64,000 nucleotides of DNA. It comes from Halobacillus shinanisalinarum (lineage in GTDB: Bacteria > Bacillota > Bacilli > Bacillales > Halobacillaceae). Shown here one piece after another: positions 7,769 through 62,174 of the stretch; the first letter of the stretch is position 1; every line of letters begins with the position of its first letter. Where the stretch lies: contig NZ_CP095074.1 in NCBI RefSeq assembly GCF_022919835.1, forward strand, positions 3,636,001-3,700,000, read 5' to 3'. Under the pieces are notes generated by a model. That model did not search any database, was not told the origin of the DNA, and saw only the letters and a program-made list of their open reading frames with translations. Both the position numbers and the translations under genes were made by a program.

Positions 7769-9445
7769 TTGAACATCAACAGGAAGATTACAACAGATGT
7801 ATTGGTTGTAGGAAGCGGACTGTCTGGTATTAAAGTCAGCAAAGAACTAGCCGCGGCCAACCATGAAGTCTTAATGGTAACGAAAACAAAGCTAGCTTCC
7901 GGTTCAAGCTTCTACCCTTTAAAAGCGTCATTAGGCACACAAGTGACGAAGGATGAAGGCGATAAGCAGACCTTCTTGCAGGATATAGATGACTTAAGCC
8001 GCGGCATGCATAGAGATGACCTGGCTGAAGTATATGTGAATGAAATTCCTGAGAGGGTCAAGGAATACGAAGATATCGGTGTTCATCCAAAGAAATTGGC
8101 TGGTGAGCGAAAGGCTTGTTTTGCCAATCACCCGAGAGATATATACTTGTTAAGTGACTGGGATCGAATTCGGGAAAATGTCAGCGTTATTTTCAACGAT
8201 TATGACAAACTGAAGTTGATGCAGAAAACGGTCGCGGTATCTTTGATGAAAAAGGGGAACAGGGTCGTAGGTGCAATCTTGCTTGATGGAGAGAATCAAT
8301 TTGTGTTCGTTGAATGTAAAGCTGTTGTTCTAGGTTCAGGTGGTTTTGGAAGTATCTATAAACATAATCTCAACCCGGCAGATGTAGATGGATCAGGACA
8401 CGTATTGGCGTTGGAAGCAGGCGCAAGGTTGGTCAATATGGAGTTTATTCAGTTTATTCCTGGCATTACGACTCCCCGATATAAAACGTTGTTTGGGGAA
8501 CACACGCTGATGTATTGTAAAGATATTGTTGATGAACATGGAGAAAGCCTGCTTGATCGTTATTTGCCAGAAGGGATTTCAAAAAAGGAATGTTTAAAGA
8601 TACGAAGCACACATGGGCCTTTTACTCACTCGCTTGAATCCAAGTATTTTGATATGGCTATGATGAAAAATATTATCATGACTAAAGATGAACGAGGCTT
8701 TACCCTCCTATATGATGAGGAACTTTACGAAAATAAGGAAGAATTTTATACCGTCTATTTGGAATGGCTAAAAGAGAAAAACGTTCATCTGACGCAAGAT
8801 GAGGTAAAGATTGCTCCGTTTGCTCATGCCAGTAACGGAGGTGTGTTTATCGACACCTATGGACGAACCGGAGTTGACGGATTGTACGCGATTGGAGAAC
8901 TCTCTTCCAACATCGAAGGAGCAAACAGACTTGGCGGCAATTCGACAGGAGCCTGCCTCGTGTTCGGTAAACGTGCAGCGGAGAATTGTGAAAGATATCT
9001 GCAGACGATCGAAGGTTGCTCAATAAGTGAACGTGAGGCTAATGAGTTTTTGCAAACCCTTCGATCTGGTACGGCAGCCGTGCAGGCAGGGGAAACCAAT
9101 GTTAATCAGATGATTGATCAAATCAAAGAGATCATGTGGTATAGTGGAAATGTTGTCCGATCCGAGCAACAATTAATGGAAGCGCTTGAAGAGATTAAAG
9201 GGTTGGAAGCCGCCTTTCCTTTTGCAAAATTGATCGAACAGCAGCATTCGCGAAAGCTGGCTATCAAGGCAAGGAATTTTATTAAACTATCACAGGTTTT
9301 ACTTCAGGCTATGCTTGAGCGAAAAGAAAGTCGCGGAGCTCATTATCGGGAGGATTACCCTTCTGAAAACCCGCAATACAATAAACGATTATTTGTATTC
9401 CAAAAGCAAAATCAATCGATGGCGTTTGACTTTTTAAATAACTAG
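7769..9445 (+). CDS. FAD-dependent oxidoreductase of the NadB/fumarate reductase family in the sialic acid operon
   Basis: This is a flavoprotein of about 558 residues from the succinate dehydrogenase/fumarate reductase/L-aspartate oxidase superfamily. The N-terminus carries the dinucleotide fold VLVVGSGLSGI. The second half holds HASNGGVFIDTYGRT, GLYAIGE and EGANRLGGNSTGACLVFG, the usual FAD-binding C-terminal signature. A helical C-terminal domain follows (about residues 440-540). No signal peptide is visible, so it is cytoplasmic. TTG 7769 follows AGGTGGGTG with good spacing. It lies 18 bases after the symporter and before nanK. Such an enzyme is not part of the standard Nan pathway, and its substrate is unknown. 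By inference it oxidises a sialic acid variant or an intermediate. Confidence 0.75.
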   Translation: MNINRKITTDVLVVGSGLSGIKVSKELAAANHEVLMVTKTKLASGSSFYPLKASLGTQVTKDEGDKQTFLQDIDDLSRGMHRDDLAEVYVNEIPERVKEYEDIGVHPKKLAGERKACFANHPRDIYLLSDWDRIRENVSVIFNDYDKLKLMQKTVAVSLMKKGNRVVGAILLDGENQFVFVECKAVVLGSGGFGSIYKHNLNPADVDGSGHVLALEAGARLVNMEFIQFIPGITTPRYKTLFGEHTLMYCKDIVDEHGESLLDRYLPEGISKKECLKIRSTHGPFTHSLESKYFDMAMMKNIIMTKDERGFTLLYDEELYENKEEFYTVYLEWLKEKNVHLTQDEVKIAPFAHASNGGVFIDTYGRTGVDGLYAIGELSSNIEGANRLGGNSTGACLVFGKRAAENCERYLQTIEGCSISEREANEFLQTLRSGTAAVQAGETNVNQMIDQIKEIMWYSGNVVRSEQQLMEALEEIKGLEAAFPFAKLIEQQHSRKLAIKARNFIKLSQVLLQAMLERKESRGAHYREDYPSENPQYNKRLFVFQKQNQSMAFDFLNN

Positions 9446-9453
9446 AGTTTATT

Positions 9454-9489
9454 AGAGAAAAACCTTAGATAAGGGTTTTTCTCTTTTTG
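9454..9489 (+). terminator. Hairpin between the flavoprotein gene and nanK
   Basis: AGAGAAAAACCTT pairs with AAGGGTTTTTCTCT over about 13 bp, followed by five T. It can act as a partial terminator that lowers expression of nanK and the regulator relative to the catabolic genes. Confidence 0.75.
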
Positions 9490-9506
9490 CGAGAAAGGAG
9501 AAGACA

Positions 9507-10409
9507 ATGAAGCTGCTTGGTGTATTCGATATTGGTGGGACCTCGATCAAGTATGGAGTAGTTAATGAGGTAGGGGATATTTTGTACAAAGACGCTGTTC
9601 CAACCGAAGCTTACCTTGGAGGAGTAGAGGTTATAAATAAAGTGAATAAACTAGGTGATGAGCTAATCGGGGACTATGAAATCAATGGGATTGCCATTAG
9701 TTCAGCGGGACAGATCGACAGCATAAGCGGAACGGTTGTATTTGCAACGGATAACATTCCTAATTATACAGGAACCCCGGTTGCAGAAATAGTAAGCAAC
9801 CATACAGGATTGCCGGTGAAGGTGGAAAATGACGTGAACTGTACAGCACTTGGAGAGTATTGGAAAGGGGCGGCTGTTGGTGTAGATGACTTCCTATGTG
9901 TCACGATTGGAACAGGCATTGGTGGTGCATTATTCTTACATGGTAAACTGTATACAGGCTCCCATTTTTCAGCAGGGGAACTCGGGCACATCAACCTTTA
10001 TCCTCATGGCAAACCATGTACGTGCGGCAATCAGGGGTGTTTTGAAAACTATGCTTCAAGTTCAGCGTTGGCAGAAATGGTGACGACAGCGTTTGGATAC
10101 GAAGTTGATCTGAAAGAATTTTTTGCAGCGGCTAAGCAGGGAGACGCTCTAGCCGTGGAGATTTTCGACAGCTGGATTGAGGATATGACAATAGGGTTGC
10201 GCTCGCTTGTTCATATATTTAACCCAGAGTTAATTGTCATTGGCGGCGGGGTTACAGCACAGGGAGACTTTTTGCAACGAGCGATTCAAGACTCCCTTTT
10301 GCCGAAGACGATGCCGAACCATCGGCGTTCTTTACAAGTAAAACTAGCTGAGCATGATAACAAAGCGAATTTATTGGGGGCAGCCAAGCATTATTTGATG
10401 ACCCAATAA
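9507..10409 (+). CDS. nanK: ROK-family N-acetylmannosamine kinase
   Basis: NanK phosphorylates ManNAc to ManNAc-6-phosphate, the substrate of NanE. The 300-residue protein shows the ROK layout: phosphate-binding GVFDIGGTSIKYG at the N-terminus, VENDVNCTALGEY, GTGIGGALFLHG, and the zinc-binding GHINLYPHGKPCTCGNQGCFE (residues about 161-181; three Cys plus His). A second ATP-binding stretch, LIVIGGGVT, lies near residue 247. AAGGAGAAG precedes ATG 9507. Its stop overlaps the next gene's ATG (TAATG). The ROK call is certain; ManNAc specificity rests on the nanE-nanA context. Confidence 0.9.
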   Translation: MKLLGVFDIGGTSIKYGVVNEVGDILYKDAVPTEAYLGGVEVINKVNKLGDELIGDYEINGIAISSAGQIDSISGTVVFATDNIPNYTGTPVAEIVSNHTGLPVKVENDVNCTALGEYWKGAAVGVDDFLCVTIGTGIGGALFLHGKLYTGSHFSAGELGHINLYPHGKPCTCGNQGCFENYASSSALAEMVTTAFGYEVDLKEFFAAAKQGDALAVEIFDSWIEDMTIGLRSLVHIFNPELIVIGGGVTAQGDFLQRAIQDSLLPKTMPNHRRSLQVKLAEHDNKANLLGAAKHYLMTQ

Positions 10410-53365: not shown

Positions 53366-53438
53366 TGAAATTCATTCTTCTACGAAGTTTTTTTACAATT
53401 TTTAAAATTTACCCTTCCCATAATCGATTATCGTATTG

Positions 53439-53472
53439 TATAATTGTCGTACAAATTATGATAGCGCTTTCT
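53439..53472 (+). promoter_or_regulatory. Promoter -10 box, GntR operator and cre-like site before the GltS-like gene
   Basis: TATAAT lies at 53439-53444, the palindrome-like TTGTCGTACAA at 53444-53454, and TGATAGCGCTTTCT, a cre-like sequence with two mismatches, at 53459-53472. No good -35 box is seen. The palindrome suits the FCD-GntR regulator encoded as the second gene of this unit. Confidence 0.5.
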
Positions 53473-53502
53473 TAAAATCTGTTTTTTTTGGGAGGAATGA
53501 CA

Positions 53503-54864
53503 TTGTCAGCATGGGATTTAGCTATTGATTTGGGATTGATTTCGGTTTTATTGTTAGTTGGTGTAGTGTTACGAGCGAAAGTGGGAATCGTCCAAAGGCT
53601 ATTTATTCCGGCTAGTATCATAGCAGGGGGTATTGGTCTAACCCTAGGTCCTAACGGTCTTGATTGGTTACCCTTTTCCGGTTTGGTAAGTGAATATCCT
53701 ACGGTTTTAATCGCGGTTATTTTTGGTGCGATCCCGATCGGTGCTGCCAAAGTGAATTGGAAGCAGACCTTTGGACGAGTGAGAAATATGTGGGTGTACT
53801 CGATGCTGTTAACCTTACTTATGTGGGGTGGGGGTGCGATGGTTACATACTTAATCATAGCCCGGGTATGGGATATCCCAACAGGTTTTGGACTGGTCCT
53901 TGGGGCTGGATTTCTCGGGGGGCACGGTACAGCAGCAGCAGTTGGCGAAGCTTTCAGTGGACTTGGCTGGGAGGAGGCCACAGCATTAGGCTATACTTCA
54001 GCAACGATAGGTTTAATTTGTGCTATCCTTGGTGGACTGCTGCTCATTAAGAAGAATACACGTAATAACCAGACCAATTTTATTTCCGACTTTGAAGAGC
54101 TGCCTAATGAATTACGTACAGGTTTAGTCCCTAAAGAAAACCGTCCTTCTTCAGGGGAGAATACGGTATCTAGCAACACCGTCGATCCATTATTTTTTCA
54201 TATTGCCATTTTAGCGGTTGTTGTCATGGTAAGTTACTTTTTACAAGTAGGGATTGAAGCCACCTTTCCTCAGGTCAGCATTCCTCTATTAAGTCTGTCA
54301 TTTGTCGTTGGTTTGCTGATGCAGTTCGTATTAAACACAACGAAAGGTAATCACTATGTGGATAAAAGAGTGATCGATCGCTTAGCCGGAACCGCTACAG
54401 ATTTAATTGTTGCTTTTGGTATTACTTCTATCAATCTTGCTGTTGTGGCAGCATATGCTTGGCCGCTTCTGGCATTATTCGTTTTTGGAGTTATCTGGGC
54501 GTACTGCATTTTCCACTTTATTGCTCCACGCGTGTTCCATCGCCACTGGTTTGAAAATGCCATTTTTGGATGGGGATGGAGTACAGGTACTGTGGCAATG
54601 GGAATTGCCCTCCTGCGCATAGTCGATCCCAAATCGAAAAGTACTACCTTGGACGACTATGCTTTAGGTTATGTCGGGATGGTTCCAGTAGAGATTATGG
54701 TCATAACCTTTGGCCCTATAATGATGATGGCAGGATTCGGCGGAATATTCTCGCTTATTTTACTAGGGACAAGCGCTGTACTTATAATCATTGCCGCTAA
54801 GTCAGGCTGGCTGGCTTCTATTCAAGACACGAAGAAATTTAATAGAGACTCAAACGTTTCCTAG
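53503..54864 (+). CDS. GltS-like sodium:carboxylate symporter
   Basis: This 453-residue membrane protein resembles sodium:glutamate symporters. The twin motifs GAGFLGGHGTAAAVGEAF (near residue 130) and WGWSTGTVAMGIALLRIVDP (near 360) hold the glycine-rich re-entrant loops. About twelve helices are visible, with a charged linker around 185-225. TTG 53503 follows GGGAGGA by 7 bases; upstream in-frame starts overlap that site. The linked GntR, hydrolase and GlcD/GlcF-like genes suggest it imports a hydroxy- or amino-acid type substrate rather than glutamate as such. Confidence 0.83.
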   Translation: MSAWDLAIDLGLISVLLLVGVVLRAKVGIVQRLFIPASIIAGGIGLTLGPNGLDWLPFSGLVSEYPTVLIAVIFGAIPIGAAKVNWKQTFGRVRNMWVYSMLLTLLMWGGGAMVTYLIIARVWDIPTGFGLVLGAGFLGGHGTAAAVGEAFSGLGWEEATALGYTSATIGLICAILGGLLLIKKNTRNNQTNFISDFEELPNELRTGLVPKENRPSSGENTVSSNTVDPLFFHIAILAVVVMVSYFLQVGIEATFPQVSIPLLSLSFVVGLLMQFVLNTTKGNHYVDKRVIDRLAGTATDLIVAFGITSINLAVVAAYAWPLLALFVFGVIWAYCIFHFIAPRVFHRHWFENAIFGWGWSTGTVAMGIALLRIVDPKSKSTTLDDYALGYVGMVPVEIMVITFGPIMMMAGFGGIFSLILLGTSAVLIIIAAKSGWLASIQDTKKFNRDSNVS

Positions 54865-54883
54865 GAAAGGATGATAGTTTCGT

Positions 54884-55594
54884 ATGAAAATTGAACGGAA
54901 GAAGATATCGATGCAGGTATTTGATCGTATTAAAGATCTCATTCAACAGAAAGAGTTAAAGCCAGGTGATCGACTTCCCACTGAAAAGCAATTATCAGAA
55001 ATGTTTGGGGTTAGTCGAACCCCTGTGCGAGAAGCGCTGAGTGTTCTAGAAGCAAGCGGGCTAACAGTTTCTAAGCAAGGGGGAGGAAGTATTATCCAAG
55101 TCACCTCCCTAACCAATCTTATGGAAGAAACCCAGTTTGAGTTTGTTGATACAGATGAAATACTTAATCTACTAGAAACACGAATCATTCTTGAGGAAGA
55201 AGCTGCACGTTTGGCTGCTATTCGAGCCACTGCAAATGATATAGCTATGATCAAAGAAAGATTGGAAGATCTCCGTACTTCACAGAATGATAATCAAGTC
55301 GGATACAAAGAAGACATTGCGTTTCACCATGCCATTGTCAAAGCTTCTCATAATCCTATACTCATCCAAACAATCGAGAATATCATGAACCTCTATGAAA
55401 AAGCTATACGATTTTCTCTTACAAAGAACATGGGGATTAAGGAAAAGCGTGCCCAGGTGCTCAGTGAACATGAGCGAATCTATACAGCTATTCGATTAAA
55501 CGATGGTGCACAATCGAGAGATGAAATGCACCACCATCTCAGTAATGCGTGTAAAAAATTTAAAGATACATTTAATCAAGCATCCAATTCTTAA
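54884..55594 (+). CDS. GntR family (FadR/LutR-like FCD) regulator
   Basis: The 236-residue protein has a winged helix (VFDRIKDLIQQKELKPGDRLPTEKQLSEMFGVSRTPVREAL at about 12-52) and an FCD domain with LETRIILEEEAARLAA, DIAFHHAIVKASHN and a late histidine-rich stretch (EMHHHLSNA). These His and Asp residues bind a metal and a carboxylate ligand. It resembles LutR, the lactate utilisation regulator. It lies 20 bases after the carrier gene. The operator candidate before that gene suggests autoregulation of the whole unit. Confidence 0.9.
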   Translation: MKIERKKISMQVFDRIKDLIQQKELKPGDRLPTEKQLSEMFGVSRTPVREALSVLEASGLTVSKQGGGSIIQVTSLTNLMEETQFEFVDTDEILNLLETRIILEEEAARLAAIRATANDIAMIKERLEDLRTSQNDNQVGYKEDIAFHHAIVKASHNPILIQTIENIMNLYEKAIRFSLTKNMGIKEKRAQVLSEHERIYTAIRLNDGAQSRDEMHHHLSNACKKFKDTFNQASNS

Positions 55595-55615
55595 ATTTCT
55601 AAAGGAGAGATTACA

Positions 55616-56503
55616 ATGATTGAAAAATCCGTACAATTTTACAGTGAAGGTTTCAAACTACAAGGCACGTTATATTTCCCAGAAGACTATGAAAATAAGG
55701 AAAAACATCCTGCGATTATAGCAAACTCTGGTTATCAAGGTGTGAACGAGTTTTATCCTCGTATGTTTGCAAAGGCAATGACGGAAAAGGGGTATATTTG
55801 TTTGGGATTTGATTATCGCGGTTTTGCTGACAGTGAAGGAGACCCGGCACGCGTTATCTTAGATGAGCAGGTAGATGATATCCGCAATGCCCTAACCTTC
55901 CTACGTACCCAAAGTGAAGTCGATCATGAGCGAATTGGTTTAATTGGATGGGGCATGGGCGGATCAAACGTTGTCCGTGTAGCTGAAAAGGAAGATGTAG
56001 CAGCCGTTGCTGCTTTAAATGGATTTTATCACGGCGAACGCTGGTTAAAGACGATTCATTCCTATGAAAATTGGTTGAATGTACTAGAGACCGTATATGA
56101 GGATCGTATTCTTCGTGTAACTACTGGGGAATCAAAGCCAGCTGATCCTTTCTTGCATTACCCACTAGATCCGGCAACTCGGGACTATGTTGATAAAGAG
56201 TTGGCTGCTAAGAAAGGCTTTGGTGGAGAGACACGCATTCAATTCTCGGATTCAATTCTAGAAATGGATGCCGAGAAGGCAGCTCAAAAATTGGAGGATA
56301 CGCCTTTGTTCGTTGCTCATGGAAAAGATAACATTCTCCATCCGTTTGAAGAGTCTGTATTTCTTTTCCATAATGCAGCAAGTCCGAAAGTTTTTTATGA
56401 AATCAATGGGAAGCACAATGATTTTATGTATAGTGACCATTATGAATTTAAAGCACTAGTGGAGGAGCTGGGAACGTTTTTTGAAGAGGCTCTTCTGTCA
56501 TGA
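55616..56503 (+). CDS. Alpha/beta hydrolase with glycine at the nucleophile position
   Basis: The 295-residue protein has the alpha/beta-hydrolase fold of the dienelactone hydrolase/acetyl esterase type: HPAIIANSGYQGVNEFYP, LGFDYRGFADSEGDP, a possible catalytic aspartate region (FVAHGKDNILHPFEE) and a late histidine (INGKHNDFMYSDH). The nucleophile elbow reads GLIGWGMGGSN, so residue 113, normally Ser, Cys or Asp, is Gly. The protein may be inactive or use a different mechanism. GGAGAGATTACA precedes ATG 55616. The next gene overlaps its stop by 4 bases. Confidence 0.82.
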   Translation: MIEKSVQFYSEGFKLQGTLYFPEDYENKEKHPAIIANSGYQGVNEFYPRMFAKAMTEKGYICLGFDYRGFADSEGDPARVILDEQVDDIRNALTFLRTQSEVDHERIGLIGWGMGGSNVVRVAEKEDVAAVAALNGFYHGERWLKTIHSYENWLNVLETVYEDRILRVTTGESKPADPFLHYPLDPATRDYVDKELAAKKGFGGETRIQFSDSILEMDAEKAAQKLEDTPLFVAHGKDNILHPFEESVFLFHNAASPKVFYEINGKHNDFMYSDHYEFKALVEELGTFFEEALLS

Positions 56504-57398
56504 ACCACTTAAGCGAACACGAGGGTCTGTACCATCCACTATTAGAGGGGGCTTATGAACTTCATGTTCATAGCTCCCCTAGTGCTTTTCCTAGAAAACA
56601 GACCGATTGGGAACTGGTAGCAGAGGCTAAACAAGCTGGCATGAAAGGTTTGGTGATTAAGGCACATGAGGGGGCTACACATGATCGAGCAACCCTTATT
56701 CGTCAGCAAATTCCCGAGATGAAAGTTTATGGAGGTTTAGTTTGTAATTTGTTTACAGGAGGGTTATCTTCACATTCGGTTGATATGGCATTACGTATGG
56801 GGCAAAAGTAATCTGGATGCCTACGATATCGGCGGAACAACATGCCAACTATTTTTCCGATCATGATCAGGGGCGCTTTTTCAATAGTGAAACATCCCTG
56901 GATAACTCTGGTTCCGATTTAACCATCTTAAATGAAAAGGGCGTAGTCAAAGATGAAGTGAAACGGATCCTTTATTTGATCGCTTCCTACGATGCTGTGC
57001 TTGCAACGGGCCATTTATCTCCTGATGAAGTGGATCTTTTAGTAGAAGAAGCACGAATGATCGGTGTCAAACGAATCCTAATTCAACACGCCGATTTAGG
57101 AATTGCCCAAATTCCGATCGATTTACAAAGAAAGTTAGCGAATCAAGGGTGCCTGATCGAAAAGTGCTATTTAGCATGTGGAGAAGACTTTAATAACCTG
57201 ACGATTTCACAAATGGCTCAGTCTATTCAAACCATTGGGTCAAAATCTTGTGTTCTAGTTACTGACTTCGGGCAGCCTCATAACCCTACACCTGTTCAAG
57301 GGCTAAGTGACTTTGTTGCACAGTTACTGAAGGAAGGAATAGGGGAAGAGAGTGTGAGAGAAATGATTGTAACGAACCCTGAATATTTGTTGTTTTGA
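56500..57398 (+). pseudogene. DUF6282 amidohydrolase-like protein, frameshifted
   Basis: The N-terminal part (ELHVHSSPSAFPRKQTDWELV) has a His-x-His metal motif as in amidohydrolase-like TIM barrels. Later parts are LYLIASYDAVLATGHLSPDEVDLL and LVTDFGQPHNPTPVQGL, with an aspartate and histidines typical of the family. I place it in DUF6282. The frame breaks at GGGG 56799-56802. Adding one G yields LRMGAKVIWMPTISAEQHANYF and a protein of about 299 residues ending at 57398. ATG 56500 overlaps the hydrolase stop (ATGA). It is probably intact in the cell. Confidence 0.78.
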
Positions 57399-57428
57399 GG
57401 TGAAGAGGATGAAAAGGAGCGTAAATAA

Positions 57429-58832
57429 GTGAGTAATTGGATCGAAGCTCTAAAAAAAGAAATACCAGAGGGTCAAATCATGACCGAATTAGCTGATCGA
57501 TATAGTTATAGTTTTGATGCTTCCTTTGGTGAATATCTTCCAGACGTCGTCGTTCAAGCTAAAAATAAACAGGAAGTTGTTTATATCGTGAAAGTGGCCA
57601 ATCAATTCGGTATCCCTATCTATCCCCGGGGACAGGGGACATGTTTAAGTGGCGGGCCGTTACCAGTTTACGGAGGAATGGTGCTTGATCTTTCTCAATG
57701 GCCTGAACAGATCACCTTGAATGTTGAAGATCTAACTATTAACGTATCCCCGAGCGTTCTGACAGCCCGTATAAACGAAGAAGCTGAGAAACATGGTCTT
57801 ATGTATGCACCTGATCCGAGCAGTGCTCATGTAGCAACAATAGGAGGAAATCTTGCAGAGAACTCCGGGGGCCCTCGTGGCCTGAAGTACGGAGTGACCA
57901 AAGATTTTGTCATAGGTCTTGAACTCGTGACGCCTGAGGGTGAAGTCATTCGTACAGGAGGTCAAACGATTAAAAATGTAACCGGCTTTGACCTGACCAA
58001 ATTGATTGTCGGATCTGAAGGGACGCTGGGTGTCATTACGGAAGCAACCTTAAAACTTATCCCTAAACCTCCTGCTGTACAAACCATTATGGTTGAATTT
58101 GATCATGTACGAACAGCCGGGCAGGCGATATCGCGTACCTTAACGTCTGGGATCTTACCTTCGAAAATGGAGTTTATGGATCAGGCATGTATTCAAGCTG
58201 TTGAGAATTTTAAGCCATCGGGACTCCCGGTTGATGCAAAAGCCATTGTAATTATTGAGTTAGACGGACATCCACAAACGCTTGATGTGGAAACGAAACT
58301 CGTCCAAAACATTATGTCTTCCATTGGTGCTACGAATTTAATCATTCCGAAAACGAAAGAAGAAGCGGATAAAATTTGGCATGCAAGAAAACAGGTATCA
58401 CCTGCCATCGCTAAAATTAAGCCGACAAAGGTATCTGAAGATGCAACGGTTCCTCGCAGTAAGATTCCTGAGATGATGGATCGATTACATGATATTAAGA
58501 ATAAGTACAATGTTGAAGTCGTTGTCTTTGGTCATGCCGGTGATGGAAACCTTCATCCAAATATTTTATGTGATAAAAGGGATCAAGAAGAAATGGGACG
58601 TGTAGAGCAAGCTGTAGAAGAAGTCTTTCAAGCAGCTATCGACCTAGGAGGCACCTTATCTGGCGAACATGGAATCGGTACAATGAAAGCGCCATTTATG
58701 GAAAAAGAACTTGGAGAAGTTGGTTTAGACATGATGAAACGGATTAAAGACAGCTGGGATCCAAATGGAATTATGAATCCAGGGAAAATTTTCCCTGAGA
58801 AAGGCCAAAAGCTGGTGTTAACAGATGAGTGA
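57429..58832 (+). CDS. FAD-binding oxidoreductase, GlcD-like
   Basis: This 467-residue flavoprotein of the vanillyl-alcohol oxidase family resembles the glycolate oxidase subunit GlcD. The FAD domain has YPRGQGTCLSGGPLPVYGGMVLDLS (about 72-96), PDPSSAHVATIGGNLAENSGGPRGLKYGVTKDFVIGLELV and GSEGTLGVITEATLKLIP. The C-terminal part has VFGHAGDGNLHPNIL and GTLSGEHGIGTMKAPFMEKE with the substrate histidines. It should oxidise a 2-hydroxy acid to a 2-oxo acid and pass electrons to the iron-sulfur partner encoded next, whose start overlaps this gene by 8 bases. The actual substrate is unknown. Confidence 0.9.
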   Translation: MSNWIEALKKEIPEGQIMTELADRYSYSFDASFGEYLPDVVVQAKNKQEVVYIVKVANQFGIPIYPRGQGTCLSGGPLPVYGGMVLDLSQWPEQITLNVEDLTINVSPSVLTARINEEAEKHGLMYAPDPSSAHVATIGGNLAENSGGPRGLKYGVTKDFVIGLELVTPEGEVIRTGGQTIKNVTGFDLTKLIVGSEGTLGVITEATLKLIPKPPAVQTIMVEFDHVRTAGQAISRTLTSGILPSKMEFMDQACIQAVENFKPSGLPVDAKAIVIIELDGHPQTLDVETKLVQNIMSSIGATNLIIPKTKEEADKIWHARKQVSPAIAKIKPTKVSEDATVPRSKIPEMMDRLHDIKNKYNVEVVVFGHAGDGNLHPNILCDKRDQEEMGRVEQAVEEVFQAAIDLGGTLSGEHGIGTMKAPFMEKELGEVGLDMMKRIKDSWDPNGIMNPGKIFPEKGQKLVLTDE

Positions 58833-60165
58833 TGTTCAAACCCTTCAAGAAAAAATCAACTATGATAAAACATTTGATTGTGTCCAATGTGGGTACTGTC
58901 TACCTGCCTGTCCCACTTATGAAACGATGGAGAGAGAAACTCATTCTCCTCGTGGACGCATAAATCTTGTAAAGCTTGTAGCGGAGGGAAAAGCATCTAT
59001 CAAGGATTTACAAGAACCAATTGAAAAGTGTCTTGGATGTATGGCCTGTACAACGGTCTGCCCTACGAATGTTCAGTATGGACAAATTTTAGAAGGAGCC
59101 AAAGAGGTGATCGAGGATCATCAAGTGAAATCTGTATGGCAGAAAAAAACGGAAGATTTCCTGTTTGAGTCATTTTTCCCCTCTGGCAAATGGATGAATA
59201 CGTTAGGGAACTTGACTTGGTTTTATCAAAGAACAGGTCTGCAGGCTTTTGCAAATTTGCTGTCTTTAACAAAATTAGCTCCGCTTCATTTGGACCAGTT
59301 TGAACAAGTGATTCCAGTGCAGCCTTCTCCAAAAGAACGCGCCAAACGTGCCAAACGTTATATGCGTAAAAGGCCAGCGACGGCTAAGGTTGCCTTCTTT
59401 ACAGGGTGTGTAATGGATAGTGTGTTTTTTGAGACCAACCAAAACACGATTGAATTGCTTTTGCGAAGTGGGCTAGAAGTCGTTCTTCCTGAACAGCAAA
59501 CCTGTTGCGGTGCTCTACATGCACACTCAGGGAAGATCAATGATTCTAGAGAATTAGCCAAACGCAATATTGAAGCTTTTGAGGAAGAGAAGGCGGATTA
59601 TATTGTAAACAATGCGGGAGGCTGTGGGGCGCGGTTGATCGAATATCATCATTTATTTGAAGAAGGGACCTCATGGCATGAGCGAGCCAAGCAGTTTGTT
59701 TCCAAAGTGAAAGACATTTCAGAAGTGTTGGTAGAAGTAGACGAATTAGAATTCACAACACCCATTGATTATACGGTTACCTACCAACCATCGTGCCATA
59801 TGACAAACGTACAAGGTGTAAAAAGCCCGCCATTGGAGCTGATAAGGAAAATCCCCGGGATTACGTTAAAAGAATTAGACCGTCCTGACTTTTGCTGCGG
59901 ATCAGCAGGCATTTATAACATCATTAATTACGAAGAATCAATGGATATATTGGATGTAAAAATGAAAGATGTATGTAGGATTGATCCAGGTTCCATTGTA
60001 ACAACGAACCCTGGGTGCCTACTGCAGATGAAACTAGGGATTGAGCGGGAAAAGGTCAGCGACGGAATGGAAGCTGTTCATCTTGTAGATCTATTAATGG
60101 AAGCATCCCCTGTGGCCAGGCAGGATGGGCCTAGACAGACGCCGTTTCAAAAGGGATCAGAGTAA
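58825..60165 (+). CDS. Iron-sulfur oxidoreductase subunit, GlcF-like
   Basis: The 446-residue protein begins with two [4Fe-4S] ferredoxin motifs (CVQCGYCLPACPTYE at about residues 20-34 and CLGCMACTTVCPTN at about 69-82). These are followed by two CCG domains (TGCV-FETNQNTIELL with CCGALHAHSG, and YQPSCHMTNVQG with CCGSAGIYN). This is the electron-transfer subunit that works with GlcD-type flavoproteins and delivers electrons to the membrane quinone pool. The overlapping start with the flavoprotein gene supports a 1:1 complex. A hairpin follows 48 bases downstream. Confidence 0.92.
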   Translation: MSDVQTLQEKINYDKTFDCVQCGYCLPACPTYETMERETHSPRGRINLVKLVAEGKASIKDLQEPIEKCLGCMACTTVCPTNVQYGQILEGAKEVIEDHQVKSVWQKKTEDFLFESFFPSGKWMNTLGNLTWFYQRTGLQAFANLLSLTKLAPLHLDQFEQVIPVQPSPKERAKRAKRYMRKRPATAKVAFFTGCVMDSVFFETNQNTIELLLRSGLEVVLPEQQTCCGALHAHSGKINDSRELAKRNIEAFEEEKADYIVNNAGGCGARLIEYHHLFEEGTSWHERAKQFVSKVKDISEVLVEVDELEFTTPIDYTVTYQPSCHMTNVQGVKSPPLELIRKIPGITLKELDRPDFCCGSAGIYNIINYEESMDILDVKMKDVCRIDPGSIVTTNPGCLLQMKLGIEREKVSDGMEAVHLVDLLMEASPVARQDGPRQTPFQKGSE

Positions 60166-60212
60166 GGTCAATATGTTACTCAGTAAACTTTGTAACTTCA
60201 TAGATTTCACTT

Positions 60213-60257
60213 CAAACCCAGATACCGCACATATAACAGCACGGTGTCTGGGTTTAA
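60213..60257 (+). terminator. Hairpin between glcF-like and nitrilase genes
   Basis: AAACCCAGATACCG pairs with CGGTGTCTGGGTTT around a 15-base loop, followed by AATTT. It probably causes partial termination ahead of the tandem nitrilase gene. Confidence 0.75.
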
Positions 60258-60278
60258 TTTATGAAAGGGAGGCTCACA

Positions 60279-62174
60279 ATGAGTAAAAAAGCGCTGAATA
60301 TAACGGTTTTGTCCATAGTAGCCGCAGTTTTCGTCATTTTTTTCTATCAATCCGGTTCTATTAAACAGGCAACTGGTAGCCAAGATACGAAAACGGAAAG
60401 AGGAGAGATGCAAACTTCTCCCTTTAAAGTAGCGACTCTCCAATTTAATCCCACCTTGAACGAAAGGAAAAAGAACGTTAAAGAGTTATCACGTGTGGCT
60501 GAAAAAGCTTTTGAAAATGGTGCGAAATTGGTCGTAGCACCAGAGATGGCTACAACAGGTTATATGTATGAAGATCGGGAAGCCATCGAACCTTTCGTTG
60601 ATACAATACCAGGAAAAACCACGGCTACATTCGCCAAGATAGCCAAAGAGAATCATGGATATATCGTCTTTGGCATGGCAGAAGTAGATGAAAAAACAGG
60701 TCTTTATTACAACTCAGCGGTATTAATCGGTCCAGACGGGTACATAGGCAAATATAGAAAAACCCAGATGTGGGAAACGGAAATGCACTGGGCTGCATGG
60801 GGAGATATGGGTGTACCTGTATTTGATACGGTTATTGGAAAGATTGCCATTAACATATGCATGGACTCAGCTTACTTTGAAACGGCAAGACTAGCGGGTA
60901 TTAAGGGAGCTGATATTATGGCTTTCCCTACAAATTCCTCAGCCCAAACGATATCTGCTCTCCCCGCAAGAGCACAGCAGAACGGGATGTATATTGTCAG
61001 CGCAAACCGCTCCAATACAGAAAAAGGGTTTCACATGATAGGGGGAAGTGCAGTTTGGTCTCCCACAGGTGAAAAGCTGGCTGAAGCTCCCATAGCTATG
61101 ACAAAAGAAGAAGCGATTGAAGAAACAGTTATTGAATACGCAGAAATCGATCTGAAACAATATGAAAACGAAAATAAGGAGCGATTAGAGCGTAGACGTC
61201 CAGAACTGTATAAAGAATTAATGCACAAAGTCGCTCCTTGGAACTCTACAAAAACCACAACATCCCATCATGTAAATGTAGCAGCTCTACAATATGAACC
61301 TGTCGCTTTGGATAAAGCAAAAAATATGGAGAAGGTTTCTCATTTGATCGAGCAAGCAACACGTGAAAATCAATCCTTGGATTTAGTCGTCCTGCCGGAA
61401 ACCTCGTTAATCGGACCTGTGGATAAGAAAAGCAAAAAAGACATTCGTTCATTGGCAGAGACGGAACAAGGCCAAACAAAGAAATTTATGGCTGACCTGG
61501 CCACAGCAAATGATATAGCCATTGTTTACGGTTTCGTTGAAAAAGAAGAGAATAAGTTGTATAACTCGGCAATGCTTATTGATAAAAACGGCAATAAGGC
61601 TGGAAAATACCGAAAGACTCACTTAAACGAAAGTGACAAGGCGTGGGCCGAAGCTGGAGCAAAGCTGCCTGTCTTTGAAACGGAAGATCTGGGAAGAATC
61701 GGAATCTTAATTGGGGAAGACGCTGCTTTCCCTGAAACCGCGGGTGTCCTGGCCGTTAATAGGGCCGATATGATTGCTATTCCTTCAGCGTGGCACGGGC
61801 AATATGGCGGGAAAATGGAAATCAACCGAGCTATTTCCAAGAACCCTTATCCTGATAACGCAATGGTGACATGGGATGCTGTCGCCATCGGTGCCCAGGC
61901 GTATACGGTTGTAGCAAACTTTATCGGAACAGATAAAGATTACTTAGGCGGGTCTGGTCTATACACCCTTGATCCACTATATGGTCTTGATCAACCAGTT
62001 GTGGCTTCGATGGGTGAAGAAGAAGTAATTACGGCGGAATTTGACACACTGCAATCAGATCGGTGGTTTAATCAAGAAAAATTACTGCAGTCTCGGCAAA
62101 CCCCTTATTTTAAACCACTTATAATAGAATCCTCTAGCCAGGAGTCAAATTCTGATCTTGATGAGGCAGCGTGA
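60279..62174 (+). CDS. Membrane-anchored tandem carbon-nitrogen hydrolase (nitrilase superfamily)
   Basis: The 631-residue protein starts with an uncleaved-looking signal anchor (about residues 7-24), so both hydrolase domains should lie outside the cytoplasm. Domain 1 (about 48-300) has the full Glu-Lys-Cys triad: VVAPEMATTGY (E89), KYRKTQMW (K161) and NICMDSAYFE (C194). Domain 2 (about 330-610) keeps E374 and K446 but has ILIGEDAAFPE, with Gly479 where the cysteine belongs. It is therefore probably catalytically dead. ATG 60279 follows GGGAGG by 6 bases. It comes last in the GlcD/GlcF-like block. By inference it releases an acid from an amide or nitrile outside the cell for uptake by the GltS-like carrier. 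Confidence 0.88.
   Translation: MSKKALNITVLSIVAAVFVIFFYQSGSIKQATGSQDTKTERGEMQTSPFKVATLQFNPTLNERKKNVKELSRVAEKAFENGAKLVVAPEMATTGYMYEDREAIEPFVDTIPGKTTATFAKIAKENHGYIVFGMAEVDEKTGLYYNSAVLIGPDGYIGKYRKTQMWETEMHWAAWGDMGVPVFDTVIGKIAINICMDSAYFETARLAGIKGADIMAFPTNSSAQTISALPARAQQNGMYIVSANRSNTEKGFHMIGGSAVWSPTGEKLAEAPIAMTKEEAIEETVIEYAEIDLKQYENENKERLERRRPELYKELMHKVAPWNSTKTTTSHHVNVAALQYEPVALDKAKNMEKVSHLIEQATRENQSLDLVVLPETSLIGPVDKKSKKDIRSLAETEQGQTKKFMADLATANDIAIVYGFVEKEENKLYNSAMLIDKNGNKAGKYRKTHLNESDKAWAEAGAKLPVFETEDLGRIGILIGEDAAFPETAGVLAVNRADMIAIPSAWHGQYGGKMEINRAISKNPYPDNAMVTWDAVAIGAQAYTVVANFIGTDKDYLGGSGLYTLDPLYGLDQPVVASMGEEEVITAEFDTLQSDRWFNQEKLLQSRQTPYFKPLIIESSSQESNSDLDEAA

Follow-up and report, generated by a model that had tools for sequence, protein, structure and literature searches.

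A window of 64,000 nucleotides from Halobacillus shinanisalinarum (contig NZ_CP095074.1, positions 3,636,001-3,700,000; the 4.89 Mb genome is a single contig) contains a block of genes that may form a catabolic operon. Seven gene families, all in one direction, occupy positions 53488-62174 of the window, and every feature of the block and its promoter region is on the + strand. The first gene (53488-54864) encodes a GltS-family (PF03616) carrier that resembles sodium/glutamate symporters. The family match was found by a genome search (58.7 bits; cut-off 26), hmmscan runs did not report the carrier, and its sequence search against the PDB gave nothing significant. The carrier is followed by a GntR-FCD regulator (54884-55594), whose best models (NanR, LldR and GlcC) each score below their own cut-off, and by an alpha/beta-hydrolase-fold protein without the nucleophile serine (55616-56503), hereafter the Ser-less hydrolase. 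DUF6282 comes next, as an N-terminal (56500-56811) and a C-terminal piece (56817-57398). The remaining genes encode a GlcD-like FAD subunit of a D-2-hydroxyacid dehydrogenase, probably for D-lactate (57429-58832), a GlcF-like Fe-S/CCG electron-transfer subunit (58825-60165), and a tandem CN hydrolase, or nitrilase, which is probably membrane-anchored or exported (60261-62174). Within 53488-62174 there is no other non-overlapping open reading frame (ORF) of at least 50 amino acids, so the block has no GlcE gene. The initial annotation listed seven genes in one direction. Their families, direction and order hold, as do the overlaps it saw between the hydrolase and DUF6282 (4 bp) and between GlcD and GlcF (8 bp), but DUF6282 is two ORFs and not one gene.

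The block is conserved. L031, L032 and L033 (L denotes sampled loci and G sampled genomes, G000 being the source genome) carry all seven genes in identical order, and the window's carrier is 81-86% identical to copies in L009 and L031-L033. Ten of the 15 loci with a close relative of the Ser-less hydrolase also hold DUF6282 and GlcD (L008-L011, L014, L015 and L018-L021); in L018 and L020 the hydrolase is about 6 kb from the other two, and GlcF is also present in eight of the ten. The remaining five loci are L012, L013, L016, L017 and L022, and a piece of GlcF is seen at the edge of the stretch in L013, L016 and L017. The survey was then widened to 398 genomes drawn evenly from the class. DUF6282 scored above its cut-off in 50 of them (with up to seven first-look candidates scored per genome) and the Ser-less hydrolase was found in 12 at E <= 1e-60 (up to five candidates per genome). 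For eleven of these 12 hydrolases, DUF6282 is encoded on the same strand no more than 2.3 kb away, G330 being the exception. The core of Ser-less hydrolase, DUF6282, GlcD and usually GlcF recurs across several Bacilli families. The initial annotation had proposed a neighbourhood survey of DUF6282, and here the linkage with GlcD and the Ser-less hydrolase proved to be kept; the absence of conservation in relatives that it named as the contrary outcome did not occur. Conserved gene order, this recurrence and a shared promoter element before the first gene also bear out its view that the genes belong to one pathway. That the genes are unrelated and adjoin one another by chance or only loosely is hardly credible. 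The nitrilase does have a separate history and is absent at several loci, but the linkage of the core is kept across families and the promoter element is common to loci, which contradicts chance for the core.

The loci have two architectures. Type A, to which the window belongs, is marked by the GltS-family carrier, joined in the Bacilli loci by the GntR regulator. In type B, an AtoS/AtoC-like sensor kinase and sigma-54 activator are combined with an ABC importer of the OpuA/ProX type; the nitrilase is single or tandem, and an MmgE/PrpD enzyme is often present. These protein names were set on L008 and extended to other loci by sequence clustering. Kinase and activator are present in ten of the 12 type-B loci, while L088 has the kinase only and L087 has neither; both of these have ABC genes. 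Importer genes are likewise seen in L019 and L020, and the L018 stretch ends without a transporter. A sigma-54-type site (TGGCAyN5TTGC) is found in all 12 type-B loci, in 3 of 12 type-A loci and in 3 of 29 other loci. The two architectures fit a scheme in which type A cuts the substrate outside and imports the acid, whereas type B imports and then cuts. Three loci have unusual arrangements. In a Synergistaceae locus (L022:3033-6844), a tandem nitrilase and a GltS-like carrier accompany an IlvD-type dehydratase and two Ser-less hydrolases, and the 15 kb fetched there contain neither DUF6282 nor GlcD. An IS1595-type transposase separates the Ser-less hydrolase from DUF6282 in L087 (7877-8806). 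A chemoreceptor (MCP) gene lies within the L081 cluster (7865-9610), with the hydrolase on one side and DUF6282 on the other, which suggests chemotaxis toward the substrate. A link to the methylcitrate pathway was considered, since prpBDC is divergent upstream of the block in L031 (and in L032 by clustering). It was not used as evidence because prpB of the source genome, at 4.57 Mb, is 0.87 Mb from the block.

A predicted promoter (TTCCCA-18-TATAAT, 53415-53444) precedes the carrier gene, with its TATAAT box at 53439-53444. Consensus scans of the window for promoters and terminators gave match numbers not above those of shuffles. The -10 region is conserved: nine of the 12 type-A loci, all but L021, L022 and L023, have a -10 box, a linker and then TGATAnCGCTT[AT]C ahead of the carrier. 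A palindrome, TTGTCGTACAA (T.GT...AC.A; 53444-53454), touches the -10 box and is a candidate operator of the block's own GntR protein; we take this palindrome to be of the FadR/GntR-FCD type. It is present in six of those nine loci (the window, L009, L010, L011, L014 and L015). A cre-like site, TGATAGCGCTTTC (53459-53471), has a placement common to the nine loci. The cre consensus alone has little specificity, with 12 matches in the window when up to one mismatch is allowed. The combined pattern of the element occurs once in the window and in none of 100 shuffles, although the pattern was written after the alignment had been viewed. The element with its cre-like site and GntR-type palindrome suggests a regulated carbon-catabolic operon, and CcpA may exert catabolite repression at the cre-like site.

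The elbow of the block's hydrolase reads GWGMG, in which the nucleophile Ser of GxSxG is absent. The initial annotation had called the enzyme serine-less, and no near relative that was scanned has the serine either. Among the 120 homologues listed of 561, 118 matched the motif scan and have Gly (117) or Ala (1) at this place, and none has Ser; P0093, which the scan missed along with P0080, has GWGMG. Judged from these alignments, absence of the serine characterises the family. Distant kin keep the serine, namely the solved 7qjm and a Rhizobium protein in L028. Residues 5-260 of the hydrolase align to 7qjm (E 1.5e-39), and the UilS model gives 101 bits against a cut-off of 400. Compared with UilS/7qjm-type hydrolases, the block enzyme is alignable but has Gly in place of Ser, and Asn where 7qjm has an Asp. 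This Asn239 is invariant, and the catalytic His, H267, is invariant in 35 of 35 sequences. The best named relatives are from Pontibacillus and are 80-82% identical.

DUF6282 is predicted to be a (beta/alpha)8 barrel. Five residues (H16, H18, H166, H191 and D250 in L009 numbering) are invariant in 36 of 36 sequences and lie at the expected strand ends, with the HxH motif after beta1, one His each after beta5 and beta6, and the Asp after beta8. HxH, His, His and Asp form the motif pattern of the amidohydrolase superfamily. A metal-dependent hydrolase with an amidohydrolase-superfamily barrel is therefore the prediction for DUF6282. It resembles phosphotriesterases, lactonases and dipeptidases in this predicted barrel and its motifs, at 9-17% identity to the solved superfamily members listed, and lactonases are among its fold matches. 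A PDB sequence search for a solved relative gave nothing significant. DUF6282 was not found in the open-access literature searched, which leaves subscription journals largely uncovered. A tandem duplication of DUF6282, with a shortened first copy, is seen in L018 (16590-18037).

In the source genome, contrary to the intact gene assumed earlier, the DUF6282 frame is split at 56500-57398. The N-terminal piece carries beta1-beta3 and the HxH motif and stops after the frame change; the C-terminal piece, in another frame, carries beta4-beta8 and the later His, His and Asp motifs, with homology from about 56793. Aligned to the 196-position PF19799 model, the pieces cover complementary halves, 1-87 and 83-196. 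In two genomes of the same genus (G002 and G009) and one of the same family (G032), DUF6282 is in one frame of 300-312 amino acids. Both pieces show purifying selection, with a ratio of nonsynonymous to synonymous substitution (dN/dS) of 0.06-0.10 against L031 and L033 (rough values, as dS exceeds 1.2). This is somewhat above the 0.04-0.05 of the computable neighbours, GltS, GlcD and GlcF (against L033 for GlcF); the GntR, hydrolase and nitrilase genes gave no computable value. The canonical GltS gene of the source genome (G000:C1:1596456-1597543; L091, L092) is likewise two ORFs in two frames. Given the purifying selection on the pieces and this second split gene, the break would be either a mutation of recent date or an indel introduced in assembly. 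The split canonical GltS, together with an estimated contamination of 4.07% in a one-contig genome, hints at assembly indels. Programmed frameshifting is not favoured because all 36 aligned relatives have a continuous frame. The two broken genes could also mean that in this strain the block is a remnant in decay or no longer functional, with DUF6282 a pseudogene and the pathway off. We regard this as rather unlikely: the remaining genes of the block are open, selection on both pieces implies a recent break or an artefact, and the contamination estimate would fit indel errors.

Other DUF6282 genes have other neighbours. In 8 of 18 regions chosen by hand from the class-sample matches, an MBL-fold group adjoins DUF6282 together with an MFS-carrier group (both types named from L075 alone), and seven of these eight have GlcD. 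In L076, and by clustering in L077, DUF6282 lies beside PIG-L and a LigK/RraA-type aldolase, the latter (in L076) scoring 283 bits for PRK09262 (cut-off 179) and 244 for TIGR02798 (below its 304.5). This is the arrangement of the 4-oxalomesaconate branch. The PDC/4-oxalomesaconate branch consists of LigI, LigJ/GalB and LigK, and LigI is a lactonase of the amidohydrolase superfamily. These neighbours, the lactonases among the fold matches and the replacement of the hydrolase by an MBL-fold enzyme at other loci raise the idea of a lactone or pyrone pathway, in which DUF6282 would be LigI-like, the alpha/beta-fold or MBL enzyme would open or rearrange a ring, and the resulting hydroxy acid would be oxidised. 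It is improbable for the block studied here. The DUF6282 proteins of L076 and L077 are just ~35% identical to that of L009, the block has neither PIG-L nor the aldolase, and a nitrilase is unexpected in such a pathway.

L061 encodes homologues that are 78% (GlcD) and 74% (GlcF) identical to those of the block, in an apparent operon with MurQ (403 bits for TIGR00274, cut-off 302), a BadF-type ATPase, a solute-binding protein and an RpiR-type regulator. In a maximum-likelihood tree, the L061 GlcD falls within a seven-row clade with six block GlcDs, including that of the window (100/99). MurQ releases D-lactate. Since a MurQ-linked GlcD is nested among the block GlcDs, the GlcDF pair would be a dehydrogenase of D-lactate or a close D-2-hydroxy acid, which narrows the 2-hydroxyacid dehydrogenase proposed earlier. 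The last step of the pathway is probably the conversion of such an acid into a 2-oxo acid. The nearest solved structures fit a D-2-hydroxy acid and do not single out D-lactate. The block shares with N-acetylmuramic acid catabolism the nested GlcD clade and the related GlcF; it has no MurQ, kinase or sugar transporter. It resembles GlcDEF and the FAD-Fe-S D-lactate dehydrogenases (kin of TIGR00387 and PRK11274) in GlcD, GlcF, their FAD and Fe-S/CCG domains and a GntR-FCD regulator, but it is without GlcE, scores below the equivalog cut-offs, and has a close homologue whose MurQ linkage points to D-lactate. In a plasmid block of Priestia filamentosa (L023:10903-12281), GlcD is in two pieces and two frames with no listed gene. 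L034, labelled type 1, shows no Ser-less hydrolase in its 12.5 kb.

Two active nitrilase domains had been assumed, and this does not hold. In domain 1, the Cys and Lys are present in all 120 homologues listed of 231 and the Glu in 119 (one gap). In domain 2, all 120 listed homologues and all 17 locus copies have Gly in place of the catalytic Cys; of the homologues, 120 keep the Glu and 104 the Lys. The enzyme would thus have one catalytic domain, domain 2 being presumably non-catalytic for want of its Cys. It shares the Glu-Lys-Cys of domain 1 with archaeal nitrilase-like proteins (NF040852; 3ivz), but is fused to a Cys-less second domain and scores 278 bits, below the cut-off of 500. A hydrophobic N-terminal stretch is present in 80 of the 120 listed homologues and in all six type-A loci with a tandem nitrilase (the window, L022, L023, L031, L032 and L033). 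Three of the four type-B tandem nitrilases (L018, L019 and L088) have none. The nitrilase of L056 has the stretch, and this locus has none of the other block genes. The window copy pairs with the Priestia plasmid copy (87/94) and not with those of L031-L033. It is 71% identical to this plasmid copy, 65-71% to those of many other Bacilli and 56-58% to those of L031 and L033, whereas the other block genes are 76-88% identical. This tree pairing and the low identity to the copies of its own genus (58%) indicate that the nitrilase gene was probably replaced or transferred horizontally. Tandem nitrilases of Rhizobiales (L065, L066) adjoin urea-type ABC genes. An acetamidase/formamidase gene is also present in L066; it fits amide chemistry and does not name the substrate. 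The Parabacteroides and Rhizobiales neighbourhoods of carrier, hydrolase and nitrilase were set aside as other pathways.

We consider the block to be a regulated catabolic operon that converts a small amide- or nitrile-bearing compound into a 2-oxo acid, with a probability of about 0.55. Its steps and regulation are what we infer from the observed gene content, synteny, motifs, predicted fold and tree position. The membrane-anchored CN hydrolase, with its one active domain, would free a carboxylate outside the cell, and the GltS-family symporter would take it up. The Ser-less alpha/beta-fold enzyme and DUF6282, in an order and by a chemistry that are conjectural, would yield a D-2-hydroxy acid, most likely D-lactate. 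From family knowledge and context, GlcD/GlcF would oxidise this acid to a 2-oxo acid (pyruvate in the case of D-lactate) and pass the electrons to the respiratory chain. At the promoter, the TTGTn3ACAA palindrome may be the target of the GntR protein and the adjacent cre-like site that of CcpA, as footprinting suggests.

Several observations weigh against this interpretation. In L031, L032 and L033, the nearest relatives, the palindrome is degenerate and reads TTTATCATACAA. The best solved sequence match of GlcD is glycolate oxidase, followed by D-lactate dehydrogenases (LctD and mitochondrial D-LDH). The GlcD name gives no substrate, because the score (483.8) is below the cut-off of the glycolate oxidase equivalog TIGR00387 (567.9) and GlcE is missing. 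On the tree, block GlcDs labelled type 1 do not separate as a single clade from the GlcDs of the MBL type (4 changes). No GlcF is shown in L011 and L014, and the DUF6282 frame of the source genome is broken. As for the nitrilase, it is lacking from the fetched stretch in 6 of 12 type-A loci (L009, L010, L011, L014, L015 and L021) and occurs without the rest of the block in L056-L060. Its export signal is ambiguous in L020, owing to the start codon. The type-A nitrilases and that of L056 form one clade (97/95), so the exported enzymes do not represent many independent events. The earlier idea that a surface nitrilase frees an acid for the carrier has indirect support in the contrast in hydrophobic stretches between the two types, weakened by the single clade and the missing genes.

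The entry substrate may be a betaine-like zwitterion with an amide, imported whole at loci with an ABC importer and cut outside at those with a GltS-type carrier, as a form of osmolyte scavenging. We hold this to be less likely than not. The importers of type B are of the OpuA/ProX type, and the L008 binding protein resembles binders of choline, carnitine, betaine and ergothioneine. An aromatic cage for this binding-protein subcluster is described in PMC9732360. The same Tyr positions and the EFYxRxDG arginine are conserved in all eight binding proteins that were aligned, but the cage residues were assigned by eye from alignments, not from a structure. Several of the named hosts are halophiles. 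On the other hand, the GltS-type carrier hints at no quaternary amine, and a demethylase or lyase gene was not recognised in the cluster. From the betaine-type features of the binding protein and the Rhizobiales nitrilase neighbours, the amide of a zwitterion is our best guess at the substrate, with low confidence. More tentatively still than the operon itself, the loci might represent a new Bacillota pathway that degrades an amide-bearing zwitterion from the environment; the nucleophile-free hydrolase-fold enzyme would carry out a non-hydrolytic step and DUF6282 would free D-lactate. The pathway would exist in two interchangeable forms, one hydrolysing outside the cell (exported nitrilase, GltS carrier, GntR/CcpA) and the other within (ABC importer of the betaine type, sensor kinase, sigma-54).

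The gene set is conserved and apparently undescribed, and searches of the same open-access literature turned up no pathway with these genes, in agreement with the initial annotation. If the proposed pathway is correct, it would offer the first clue to the function of DUF6282, of a family of alpha/beta hydrolases that lacks the serine, and of a nitrilase that carries a Cys-less domain of its own. Growth and inducer screens could put the pathway to the test, given the promoter element and the two modular versions. The same reading, if correct, would mean that Bacillota, including several halophiles, use a nutrient that has gone unrecognised.

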